NCBI GenBank assembly: GCA_019636515.1
Contig: JAHBXI010000004.1
Span: 310,001-374,000 of the forward strand
Source: Phycisphaeraceae bacterium
GTDB lineage: Bacteria; Planctomycetota; Phycisphaerae; Phycisphaerales; UBA1924
DNA: 64,000 nucleotides
Direction of reading: 5' to 3'
Every line of letters begins with the position of its first letter. The stretch's first letter is position 1. Below, piece by piece: positions 57,236-61,719 of the stretch. A program made the translations under genes and the position numbers. Below the pieces are notes generated by a model that did no database searches, had not been told where the DNA came from, and saw only the letters and a program-made list of their open reading frames with translations.

Positions 57236-59170
57236 TCAGGCCCCGCCGGGTAGCGCTCCGGGCGGATCCACCCGGAGCGACTCGGTGATGGACACCTCCT
57301 GAAGCCGGACGCTCAGCCGGTCGAGGAACTCCTTGGCGGTGTAAAACTCGCCCGCCTCGACGCTCCTCCAGTCCGACTCCGCCCGGGCGACCATCGCCGC
57401 CAGCGCCTCCGCCGCCTCGCGCAGTTGGCCCAGGTAATCGGCTTCCACAAGGTGCCCGAAACGCTCCATCCGGTCGCCGATCCATTTCAGGTCAAGGCGG
57501 CTGTTCACGACCAGGTCGATGACGCGGTGTCGAGCCATGTCCTCTCGGGCATGCACCACCGACTCGCGCTCGATGCGGTCCACCTCTTCGGCCGTCAGCC
57601 CGTGGTTGGGGATGACCTGCACCGCCGCCCGCCGGCCCGAGCGACGCTCCACCGCCGACACGCTCAGCACCCCGTTGGAGTCCACGGCAAACTCGACCTG
57701 CAACTGCGGGATTCCCGCCGGCATGGGGGCAATGCCACGCACGTGGAACATCCCAAGACTCCGGCAATCCTGGGACAACTCCCGTTCGCCCTGCAGGATG
57801 TGGATCGCGATCGACGTCTGCCCATCCACGCTGGTCGAGAACATCTCCGTCGCGCGCGTCGGCACCGCCGAATTGCGCATGATGAGTTTGGCCACCGCCC
57901 CTCCCACGGTCTCGATTCCAAGCGACAAGGGGATCACGTCCAGCAGCAGCCTTCCCCGCGTGGTTCCCGACAGGATCGACGCCTGCACCGACGCACCCAG
58001 CGCCACCACCTCGTCGGGATCCAGCGCCACGTAGGGATCGAGCCCGAAGAACTCACCCACACGGCGCCGCACGAGCGGGATGCGCGTCGATCCTCCAACC
58101 ATCACCACCGCCCCGACCCGCATGGACCCGCCGTCCATCCCCAGCACTCGGGCGGCATCCCCCATCGCGCGCCGGCAGCACGTGATCGCCCGCTCGACCC
58201 AGCCTTCGATCAGGCGCTCGAACGCACCCCGATCCAGGGATCTCTCGACGCGCGGCCCCTCGCTTTGATCGACGCCGATCACCGCCCGGTCGCCCTGGCT
58301 CAGGTATCGCTTGGCCGCTTCCGCCGAAGCCACCAGCCGAGCCATGTCACCCGGCGCGACCGATCCGACCGGCCGGCCGTCCAGCGCATAGTCCACCAGC
58401 AGGCGGTCAACGTCGTCTCCTCCCAGGTGGGTGTCTCCAGACGTGGCGATCACCTGGAACACCGACGTTTCCTCCCCCGCGGGCCCTCCCGCGGACAGGA
58501 TTTTCAGAATCGAAACATCAAAGGTCCCTCCGCCCAGGTCAAAGACCGCGACCGGCTCCTTCGCCGCGTTCCGCTCGCTCTGCCGATCAAGACCCAATCC
58601 ATACGCCAGGGCGGCGGCGGTCGGCTCGTTGAGGATCCTCACCACTTCCAGCCCCGCGAGGCGCCCGGATTCCCGCGTTGCCTGGCGCTGTGCATCGTCG
58701 AAATACGCGGGGACCGTCACCACGGCCCGGTGAACCTCCGCTCCCAGAGCCGCCGAGGCCTGCTCGCGAAGCGTCCGCAGGATGTCCGCGCTCACCTCCT
58801 GCGGCGACACGATTCGCTCCCCTGATGGAGTGGGGATCGCAAGCCGAGCCGTTCCCCTCTCGCCCGCACGAACGTCGAAGGAAAAGTACGGGAGGTCGGC
58901 CCGGGCGTCATCGACCGAACGCCCCATCAGCCGCTTCACGCTCGATATGGTCGTCGCGGGGAACTCCCCCGCCGCCGCGCGGGCCTCGCTTCCCACCACC
59001 GCCCTTGATTCCCCGCCGGCCGTCGATTCGTACCGCACCACGCTGGGGACCAGGCGTTCCCCACGCTCGTTGACAAGGACCCTGGGTCCCTGCTGGTCGC
59101 AGTACGCGACCAGGCTGTTGGTCGTCCCAAGATCGATCCCGACGATGATGTCACTCGACGACCCCGCCAT
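57236..59170 (-). CDS. HscA/DnaK-like Hsp70 chaperone
   Basis: A 644-residue cytosolic Hsp70 with full nucleotide-binding domain (VGIDLGTTNSLVAY, VVTVPAYFDDAQRQATRESG, LNEPTAAALAYGLG, VFDLGGGTFDVSIL, VVMVGGSTRIPLVRRRV) and substrate-binding domain (RLLLDVIPLSLGIETVGG, IHILQGERELSQDCRSLG, LQVEFAVDSNGVLSVSAVE). GTTNSLVA rather than GTTNSCVA is typical of HscA-like members, which load iron-sulfur clusters; the lid is short. The adjacent small Nfu-N gene, 40 bases upstream, supports such a role. ATG 59170 has GGAGG four bases upstream. No HscB, IscU or GrpE gene is near. Confidence 0.9.
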   Translation of the reverse strand: MAGSSSDIIVGIDLGTTNSLVAYCDQQGPRVLVNERGERLVPSVVRYESTAGGESRAVVGSEARAAAGEFPATTISSVKRLMGRSVDDARADLPYFSFDVRAGERGTARLAIPTPSGERIVSPQEVSADILRTLREQASAALGAEVHRAVVTVPAYFDDAQRQATRESGRLAGLEVVRILNEPTAAALAYGLGLDRQSERNAAKEPVAVFDLGGGTFDVSILKILSAGGPAGEETSVFQVIATSGDTHLGGDDVDRLLVDYALDGRPVGSVAPGDMARLVASAEAAKRYLSQGDRAVIGVDQSEGPRVERSLDRGAFERLIEGWVERAITCCRRAMGDAARVLGMDGGSMRVGAVVMVGGSTRIPLVRRRVGEFFGLDPYVALDPDEVVALGASVQASILSGTTRGRLLLDVIPLSLGIETVGGAVAKLIMRNSAVPTRATEMFSTSVDGQTSIAIHILQGERELSQDCRSLGMFHVRGIAPMPAGIPQLQVEFAVDSNGVLSVSAVERRSGRRAAVQVIPNHGLTAEEVDRIERESVVHAREDMARHRVIDLVVNSRLDLKWIGDRMERFGHLVEADYLGQLREAAEALAAMVARAESDWRSVEAGEFYTAKEFLDRLSVRLQEVSITESLRVDPPGALPGGA

Positions 59171-59210
59171 CAATCCTCCGTCGGCAAGCCGGGCAACGAG
59201 GTCGCCGCGA

Positions 59211-59522
59211 TCATCCGGACTCGTCGGCCGACATCTTCTGGACAACCTGCCCACGCAAGACCGATTCCACCCCGCGCTTGATCGACCGCCAGTCCGCCCC
59301 GGGCCGGCGGTTCACCGTCACCCACCCGTCGAGAATCAAGACCTGGGTCACTCCATCGATCCCCAGCAGGGCGGCGGCGAGCGGGTCACCCGACGCGTCC
59401 GATCCCGGCCCGTAGGAGCGAGGTCCGGACCGGCCGGGCAGCGGCGGGATCGGCACGCCGACGACGCACTTGATCGCATCGGGGTTCGGGGTCTGCTGAT
59501 ACGTGATCGAGGGGTGCTTCAC
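59211..59522 (-). CDS. Small Nfu N-terminal-domain protein
   Basis: A 103-residue protein that contains only the N-terminal Nfu domain: ITYQQTPNPDAIKCVV at the start matches the TPNPN(A/S)(L/M)KF pattern, then a Gly/Ser-rich insert, DPLAAALLGIDGVTQVLIL and WVTVNRR plus DWRSIKRGVESVL. The C-terminal CxxC domain that binds the iron-sulfur cluster in full Nfu proteins is absent. It may act as a targeting or adaptor module for the Hsp70 encoded immediately downstream. Start GTG 59522. Divergent from cdaA, with 130 bases between. Confidence 0.8.
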   Translation of the reverse strand: MKHPSITYQQTPNPDAIKCVVGVPIPPLPGRSGPRSYGPGSDASGDPLAAALLGIDGVTQVLILDGWVTVNRRPGADWRSIKRGVESVLRGQVVQKMSADESG

Positions 59523-59652: not shown

Positions 59653-60633
59653 GTGCATTCCCTGACCCCCATCCTCGACCTGCTCGATCGTATCGCCGCC
59701 TACCCGACGGCGGTCGTTGTCACCGAACTCCTGCTCATCTGGCTCGTCGTCTACGGTGTCGCCAGGTTCGTCCAGGGAACCAGGGCCGCCGGCGCCCTCA
59801 AGGGGATGATCTTCGTCCTGATCATCACCGCCGTCGTCTCCAGAATCCTGGGCGTTACCGAGGCTTTCCAGAGGCTGTCCTACCTCTACGAACGATTCGT
59901 CGCCCTGGTCGCCATCGCCCTGGTCATTATCTTCCAGCCCGAACTTCGCCGAGTCCTGGTCCGCATCGGCGAAACGCCTTTCTTCCGATCCACTCCCTCC
60001 GACATCGCCTTCACCGTCGGCGAAATCGTCGAGGCCGCGTCCTTCCTCGGCCGCGCTCGATTCGGAGGCATCATCGTCATCGAGCGGAGCGTCGGCCTCG
60101 CCGGGCTCCTTGAGGGCGGCACCATCCTCAATTCCGACCTTTCCGCGAGGCTGCTCCAGACCATCTTTTTCCCCGGATCAGCCCTCCACGACCTGGCCGT
60201 CATCGTCAAGGGACGCCGGATCTACGCCGCCGGGGTTCAACTTCCACTTGCCGAGCCCACCGATATGCCGGATCCTTCCTTTGGTTCAAGGCACCGCGCG
60301 GCGGTCGGGCTCACCAAGGAGTGCGACGCCCTCGTCGTCGTCATCAGCGAAGAAACGGGATCCATGCGCATCGCTGAACGAGGAAGGCTCTCACCCCCAC
60401 TCGACGACGATACCCTCCGTGAGCAACTCCGGTCGCGACTCACCCGCGCCCAGCGAGCCGCCGCCGCGGCCGCCAAGAGCGAACGGCCGACCGGCGAGCA
60501 ACAGGACACCCCGGATTCAACGGATCATTCGGATCCCCTCCCCGATTCCGCTGACACGCCCGACGGAAAAAACCAGCAGGCCGGCGGCCCGATCGATCGG
60601 GACGACGACCAGCATCCCCAGAAAGTCGCCTGA
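59653..60633 (+). CDS. cdaA: CdaA-type diadenylate cyclase with altered DGA motif
   Basis: Makes cyclic di-AMP from two ATP; inner membrane. The 326-residue product has three N-terminal helices (VVVTELLLIWLVVYGV, GMIFVLIITAVV, FVALVAIALVIIF), the DAC domain (about 100-240; FGGIIVIERSVGL, IFFPGSALHD) and a Pro/Asp-rich polar tail. The RHR motif is intact (Arg213-His214-Arg215 in GSRHRAAVGL). The DGA motif, which positions the nucleotide, reads Asp180-Leu181-Ala182 (ALHDLAVI instead of the usual HDGAVI). The YbbR/CdaR-type partner gene follows 54 bases downstream, the arrangement known in Firmicutes. GTG 59653. Confidence 0.88.
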   Translation: MHSLTPILDLLDRIAAYPTAVVVTELLLIWLVVYGVARFVQGTRAAGALKGMIFVLIITAVVSRILGVTEAFQRLSYLYERFVALVAIALVIIFQPELRRVLVRIGETPFFRSTPSDIAFTVGEIVEAASFLGRARFGGIIVIERSVGLAGLLEGGTILNSDLSARLLQTIFFPGSALHDLAVIVKGRRIYAAGVQLPLAEPTDMPDPSFGSRHRAAVGLTKECDALVVVISEETGSMRIAERGRLSPPLDDDTLREQLRSRLTRAQRAAAAAAKSERPTGEQQDTPDSTDHSDPLPDSADTPDGKNQQAGGPIDRDDDQHPQKVA

Positions 60634-60687: not shown

Positions 60688-61719
60688 ATGCTCTCCGGCA
60701 TTCGAACGTTCGCCCTGGTCACCATCATCACCGTGCTCATCTGGGCCTTCGCGGAGGCCGAGAGCCTTACCACCAAGGTCCTGCGTTTCGAACTGCTCTT
60801 CACGGCCGACCCCCAGACCCGGCTCTTTGCCGACCCCGCCGATGTCCAGGGGTGGACCGGACGAGTCGAAGTGACCATCGAAGGGTCCAACCGTGCCGTG
60901 GGCGATGTCGAGTTCAACCTCCGCCGGGGCGTCTCCATTCGGCCGGGCATGAGCGGGATCCCCACCGAGCCCGGCGAGTACTCCATCGACCTCAACCAGG
61001 TCCTCCGAGCCGCTCCCGAGATTGTCAACCGGGGCGTTACCATCGCCAAGGTCGATCCGCCGATCCTGCTGGTCGTGGTGGACACCCTCGTCACGCGAGA
61101 ACTCCAGGTCATCGCCGACGCCCAGGGAGCGCTCGTCGATGGTCCCGTCGAGTGCCGGCCTTCCAACGCCAGGATCACGCTCCCCCGATCCCTGAGCCTG
61201 CTCCTCCCCGCGGACATCGCCCTCACCGCCCGCATCCCGCAAGAGACCATCGGATCGCTGGTCCCCGGGCGGTCCGAGACCATCGCGGGCATCCCTATCC
61301 TCCCCCCGCCACAGGTCCGGGGGCGGCCGCGCGTGACCATCGAGCCCGAGCGAGCCGACGCCGTCCTGACGCTCCGTACCCGCACCGACTCGTTCACCAT
61401 CACCAGCGTTCCCGTCCACGTGAAGGTTGCCGCCGGAGAGTACGGACGCTGGGATATCACCATTCCTGATGAGGATCGTTTCATCCGCGACGTCACGGTC
61501 AGCGGGCCGAGCGACATGGTCGCCCGGGTCCGCCGTGGCGAAATCAGGCTCACCGCCGTCCTCACCCTGTCCTTTGACGAACTCGAGCGGGGTATCTCCA
61601 GCAAGGATGTCCTCTTCTCCGAGGTTCCGACCGAACTGAAATTCGAGACCGACCGCACCACCGTCCGGCTCCGAATCGCCCGGCGCGCCGATCCCGCGGC
61701 ACTCCCAAGCGACGACTAA
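60688..61719 (+). CDS. YbbR-domain protein (CdaR-like)
   Basis: A 343-residue protein with one N-terminal membrane helix (TFALVTIITVLIWAFAEAESL) and about three YbbR-like beta domains outside (for example VEVTIEGSNRAVGDVEFNL, ITLPRSLSLLLPADIALTARI and ITIPDEDRFIRDVTVSGPSDM). YbbR/CdaR regulates the CdaA diadenylate cyclase by binding it through the membrane part. Gene order cdaA-ybbR matches the usual arrangement, but glmM is absent. ATG 60688 has GGGGA eight bases upstream. Confidence 0.83.
   Translation: MLSGIRTFALVTIITVLIWAFAEAESLTTKVLRFELLFTADPQTRLFADPADVQGWTGRVEVTIEGSNRAVGDVEFNLRRGVSIRPGMSGIPTEPGEYSIDLNQVLRAAPEIVNRGVTIAKVDPPILLVVVDTLVTRELQVIADAQGALVDGPVECRPSNARITLPRSLSLLLPADIALTARIPQETIGSLVPGRSETIAGIPILPPPQVRGRPRVTIEPERADAVLTLRTRTDSFTITSVPVHVKVAAGEYGRWDITIPDEDRFIRDVTVSGPSDMVARVRRGEIRLTAVLTLSFDELERGISSKDVLFSEVPTELKFETDRTTVRLRIARRADPAALPSDD

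Follow-up and report, generated by a model that had tools for sequence, protein, structure and literature searches.

In Phycisphaerae, leucine or methionine replaces the glycine of the DGA motif in CdaA-type diadenylate cyclases, together with a change at a predicted adenine-pocket residue

The window analysed here, a stretch of 64,000 nucleotides from a Phycisphaeraceae bacterium, carries a cdaA-type diadenylate cyclase gene at positions 59653-60633 of the forward strand, with a GTG start codon and 326 encoded amino acids. The product matches the Pfam diadenylate cyclase domain (DAC, PF02457; E 1.2e-33, 115.6 bits against a cut-off of 27) and passes the NCBIfam model TIGR00159, "diadenylate cyclase CdaA" (195.7 bits, cut-off 188.8); it fails the DisA equivalog model PRK13482 (28.6 bits, cut-off 201). 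No other DAC match occurs in the source genome assembly, which spans 3.39 Mb over 7 contigs and is 94.6% complete. The N-terminus resembles CdaA_N and is probably a membrane region (59725-59943, forward strand; residues 25-97): an AF2 model predicts helices at residues 19-40, 45-66 and 70-93, and the CdaA_N score is 20.4 bits, under the cut-off of 23.8. On the reverse strand, the adjoining 59211-59522 encodes a 103-residue protein that is almost all Nfu N-terminal domain (E 1.4e-16), with no match to the Nfu C-terminal domain, and 57236-59254 encodes an Hsp70-type chaperone of 672 residues, transcribed away from cdaA.

The sequence-only reading of this gene had reported a DLA triplet where DGA is expected, beside an intact RHR motif, and codons and translation bear this out exactly. 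H179 (cac, 60187-60189) and D180 (gac, 60190-60192), both invariant columns in an alignment of 61 sequences, are followed by L181 (ctg, 60193-60195) and A182 (gcc, 60196-60198), so that the variant motif occupies 60190-60198 of the forward strand; L181 stands in place of Gly172 of the CdaA proteins of Bacillus subtilis and Listeria. Further along the same strand lie the intact RHR motif (60289-60297, residues 213-215), within a GXRHRXA motif that reads GSRHRAA (residues 211-217), and an intact SEETG motif (60346-60360, residues 232-236). The protein thus fails the exact DGA signature, yet groups with CdaA both by the curated model and in a phylogenetic tree.

Fifty-four bases downstream, at 60688-61719 of the forward strand, is an open reading frame encoding 343 amino acids that is a candidate for the membrane-anchored CdaR-like (YbbR-like) partner, on account of its position and an N-terminal hydrophobic stretch. 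The earlier description of it as CdaR-like finds support only in its orthologues. The frame itself has no Pfam match up to E 10 and none in NCBIfam, but of ten orthologous neighbours in other genomes, two (L038, L241) score over the cut-off for the YbbR domain (PF07949) and four (L032, L036, L037, L234) below it.

How far does the substitution reach? The main cyclase has Leu or Met at residue 181 in all 125 Phycisphaerae genomes in which it was read, which excludes chance or sequencing error. These genomes comprise 59 from the window's own order (61 were searched and two had no match), sets of 28 and 20 from elsewhere in the class, 17 chosen by their riboswitches, and one found by pattern (locus L158 of genome G085). 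A class-wide DAC search covered 120 genomes and found a match in 118, and the residue was read in part of these. By contrast, Gly occupies the site in all 59 other Planctomycetota genomes read, which were the 30 best-scoring matches and 29 hand-picked ones, mostly low-scoring or odd; the wider search of the phylum from which they came covered 157 genomes, 11 of them from Phycisphaerae. Of 80 public contigs that resemble the window protein, 73 have Gly and seven have Leu or Met, all seven titled Phycisphaerales; reads outside Planctomycetota come from such contigs, chosen by similarity to the window protein, and leave room for independent changes of the Gly in other phyla. To the question raised earlier, whether Leu is fixed across Planctomycetota, the answer is divided: Leu or Met is fixed within Phycisphaerae as far as read, and the other Planctomycetota genomes read have Gly. 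Within our sample, the replacement of Gly by Leu or Met is confined to Phycisphaerae. These counts rest on domain-model searches followed by reading of residue 181. A wide DNA pattern spanning HD to RHR was tried as a counter and rejected as too noisy, since it matched 198 of 198 class genomes many times each, although a few of the matches listed were clearly cyclases.

Within the class, Gly occurs at this site only in second DAC genes (four read of five fetched in the window's order, L140-L143, and ten read of 11 in the class, L273-L282). These are divergent genes that keep DGA and have RHA, RHT, RHM or RHG for RHR, the second Arg being gone. Separately, the main CdaA of three genomes from one family of the class (L245, L250 and L316, in G130, G167 and G152, respectively) reads RHL, together with D-L-G, which adds a natural variant at a second motif regarded as essential; G130 and G152 have this RHL cyclase and yet carry a ydaO riboswitch.

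We built a FastTree phylogeny from 238 distinct CdaA-type sequences, 112 with Leu or Met and 126 with Gly, after removing columns 181 and 196. All 112 Leu/Met sequences fall in one clade that contains no Gly sequence (support 0.863), and the change from Gly to Leu/Met therefore happened once; statistically, the 125 genomes are a single event. When Leu and Met are told apart, the site changes state 12 times in all, that is, about 11 times after the initial switch. Clade members use ATG (47), CTN (58) and TTR (7) codons, so that Leu and Met are the only residues found, with no reversion to Gly in the sample. Movement of the site between Leu and Met alone argues that a long hydrophobic side chain is under constraint. 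The gene as a whole gave low dN/dS values between close pairs: 0.093 and 0.10 for the window cyclase against two congeners (G001 and G002, respectively, at a dS of about 1.2, near saturation) and 0.061 for L177 against L189. Over all 3523 class pairs with dS from 0.05 to 1.5, the median was 0.43 and values ran to 1.5; we set this all-pair estimate aside, a choice made after the result was seen, because a low apparent dS between distant sequences suggests codon bias in common.

A column-by-column comparison of the two groups revealed a second position that changed with the first. Residue 181 separates the class fully, and residue 196 comes next (divergence 0.94 bits). In the window cyclase, residue 196 is Gln (CAA, 60238-60240, forward strand). 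The 112 class sequences have Gln (102), Glu (7) or Pro (3) there, as against Leu (42), Val (29), Tyr (18), Phe (11), Ile (11), Met (7), His (4), Gln (2), Ala (1) and Thr (1) in the 126 others. Weaker shifts occur at 212, where the class has Ser for Thr202, and at 222, where Lys, Gln, Arg and others replace Glu. By alignment, window residues 181 and 196 correspond to residues 172 and 187 in the B. subtilis/Listeria numbering, in which the B. subtilis residues D171 and R203 are also given (PMC8573169). Tyr187 of Listeria CdaA is described as stacking on the adenine and as crucial for activity (PMC10167629); Gln196, which aligns with it, is the second half of the paired switch. The AF2 model has consecutive strands at 182-186 and 189-195, with a short turn between them; if they form a hairpin, the side chains of 181 and 196 would lie on the same face. 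The two changes need not occur together, since CdaA proteins of the Kuenenia type (L065, L071, L074), on a separate branch of the tree, combine Gln at 196 (CQLPL) with an ordinary DGA motif; Gln196 arose independently in that group.

The rest of the catalytic set is kept. All 112 distinct class sequences retain D180, R213, H214 and E233; 109 retain R215 and 110 retain E234. The DAC domain of the window cyclase is modelled with a pLDDT of 92-98 (in 10-residue blocks) and superposes on the ATP complex of Listeria CdaA (8c4o) with a Z score of 26.9 and an rmsd of 1.2 over 151 residues, and on a c-di-AMP complex (6hvl) with a Z score of 26.5. Mutants of relatives have been published. In Mycobacterium tuberculosis DacA, a DisA, the change of Gly73 to Ala left ATP binding and activity in place, changing RHR to AAA abolished both, and changing DGA to AAL or AAA sent the protein into inclusion bodies (PMC3328451); Leptospira CdaA cannot do without the Asp and Arg of its two motifs (PMC12974146).

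Other components of c-di-AMP signalling are present in the class. Of 101 class genomes searched, 27 carry the ydaO c-di-AMP riboswitch (RF00379), with a score over the cut-off in 26, and 74 gave no match. In 25 of the 27, the sole DAC over the Pfam cut-off is the D[L/M][A/G] enzyme. One of the two exceptions, G154, has a second DAC; the other, G127, has no DAC match, despite two c-di-AMP riboswitches and a PgpH-type gene, and in this assembly, which is 91% complete, the missing DAC is probably a gap. Five aptamers aligned to RF00379 score 66-104 bits and look canonical. KimA and Trk/Ktr transporters are the usual company of ydaO. In G155, where the sole cyclase reads DLA, the aptamer is followed after 124 bases by a TrkH potassium transporter, and in three other genomes it is followed after 34-56 bases by a transporter of the amino-acid-permease type; at the fifth site inspected, in L320, no transporter stood out beside the aptamer. 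PgpH-type phosphodiesterases (PF07698, 7TM-7TMR_HD) are encoded by 98 of 101 class genomes, including the window's own, where the protein (on contig G000:C2) has 803 residues with 7TMR-HDED and HD domains and is encoded after a phoH-like gene. The seven genomes of the window's own family that were searched gave no RF00379 match, and for this family the product is therefore extrapolated from class relatives that share the same pocket. Judged from these sequence comparisons, the product is probably still c-di-AMP.

We propose that the gene encodes a housekeeping, membrane-anchored CdaA whose DAC domains would pair head to head and convert two ATP into c-di-AMP. The chemistry would fall to Asp180 and the RHR motif, as in other CdaA proteins, to judge from their conservation and from the mutants of relatives described above. 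Before the class diversified, the Gly that follows the catalytic Asp gave way to Leu or Met, both long, unbranched and hydrophobic, and the adenine-packing residue (Tyr187 in Listeria; elsewhere chiefly Leu, Val, Ile or Phe) gave way to Gln. A hydrophobic contact to the base, or within its pocket, may thereby have passed from residue 187 to residue 172 in the B. subtilis/Listeria numbering. We consider it likely that the class has a working CdaA variant with a rebuilt base pocket that still makes c-di-AMP. The active Gly73Ala mutant of M. tuberculosis DacA speaks for this reading. Points against it are that this tolerated change is to Ala in a DisA, that the AAL and AAA versions of DGA ended up in inclusion bodies, and that no riboswitch was found in the window's own family or in most class genomes. 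The sequence-only reading had left a choice between a tolerated lineage variant and an enzyme of altered activity or substrate. The single ancient change, its class-wide retention as Leu or Met, the conservation of the other catalytic residues, and the riboswitches and phosphodiesterases of the class all favour the former; for the latter, nothing positive emerged beyond Gln196, a second pocket change that the earlier reading had not mentioned.

That second change is what gives an altered substrate or product its appeal. Both of the residues that most sharply set the class apart lie at or beside the base and ATP site, residue 212 has also shifted from Thr to Ser and residue 222 from Glu to Lys, Gln, Arg and others, and a Gln next to the base could hydrogen-bond to the edge of a different one; Leu/Met172 and Gln187 together might then shift recognition towards another nucleotide, or yield a mixed or linear dinucleotide. 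Against this, the riboswitch-bearing genomes almost all rely on the variant as their only cyclase over the Pfam cut-off, and their aptamers look canonical. Moreover, in Listeria CdaA the adenine is reported to be bound through main-chain atoms of Leu188 (PMC10167629, PMC11066881), and the aligned residue, 197, is Leu or Phe in nearly all sequences of both groups. The Kuenenia-type enzymes also show Gln together with an ordinary DGA. We therefore disfavour an altered substrate, and regard it as quite improbable. To the stronger form of the idea, in which the paired switch changed base selection so that, throughout the class, another cyclic dinucleotide replaces or accompanies c-di-AMP as the product, we give the least credence of all; in that event, the riboswitches of the class would have to read the new product.

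It is also conceivable that the enzyme is a weak or dead cyclase, retained as a nucleotide sensor or as a scaffold for CdaR. The Gly belongs to the textbook ATP-binding motif, where a bulky residue could reduce activity, and the main copy reads RHL in the three genomes noted above. We think this very unlikely, given that the Asp, R213-H214 and the SEE residues are almost always kept, that the variant is the sole DAC in most class genomes, and that PgpH is found alongside it while c-di-AMP riboswitches persist. Neutral drift overlaps with the favoured explanation in everything except the pocket swap: the enzyme would be an ordinary c-di-AMP synthase, with Leu/Met having no function of its own and the pairing with Gln196 reflecting shared ancestry. 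A single origin is compatible with this, and in M. tuberculosis DacA the Gly73Ala mutant kept ATP binding and activity (PMC3328451), although the tolerated change there was to Ala in a DisA, whereas Leu is much bulkier and the enzyme here is a CdaA. A site directly after the catalytic Asp that has held through the depth of the class without reversion, and at which Leu and Met have been exchanged only for each other, does not behave like an unconstrained position, and we consider drift alone unlikely. A functional CdaA with a remodelled pocket remains our preferred explanation.

The DGA motif serves as a signature of diadenylate cyclases (PMC12974146, PMC6741144), and a sequence list in PMC6741144 names Planctomycetales. 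We did not find the Leu/Met variant in the open-licence literature, nor any account there of c-di-AMP or diadenylate cyclase with Phycisphaerae; subscription papers lay outside the scope of this search. The signature is not universal, in that one class carries Leu or Met for the Gly wherever the residue was read; because these bulky residues occur while the signalling system looks intact, the motif appears less universal than is taught. It may not be possible to extend motif-based annotation, or the design of inhibitors from Firmicutes structures, to these enzymes. The class also offers a natural experiment on which features of the adenine pocket c-di-AMP synthesis needs, and the paired switch allows a clean two-residue test.

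The closest known systems are the CdaA/DacA proteins of B. subtilis and Listeria monocytogenes (TIGR00159; structures 8c4o, 6hvl and 8ogk), with which the window cyclase shares a membrane N-terminus (predicted here), the DAC fold (Z 26-27), the His-Asp pair, RHR, SEETG and a CdaR-like gene downstream, here a candidate. It differs from them in having DLA (D[L/M][A/G] across the class) for DGA, Gln for Tyr187, Ser for Thr202, Lys222 for a near-invariant Glu, and a one-residue insertion before RHR. The DACs of other Planctomycetota, although from the same phylum and mostly with His-Asp (56 of 59 genomes) and RHR (54 of 59), keep the Gly in all 59 and carry at 196 either His, Thr or a hydrophobic residue. 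CdaA proteins of the Kuenenia type have Gln196 in common with the window cyclase, but with an ordinary DGA and on another branch of the tree. M. tuberculosis DacA G73A resembles it in that the same motif glycine is replaced in an enzyme reported to be still active, but that protein is a DisA, and the replacement, by Ala, was engineered (PMC3328451).
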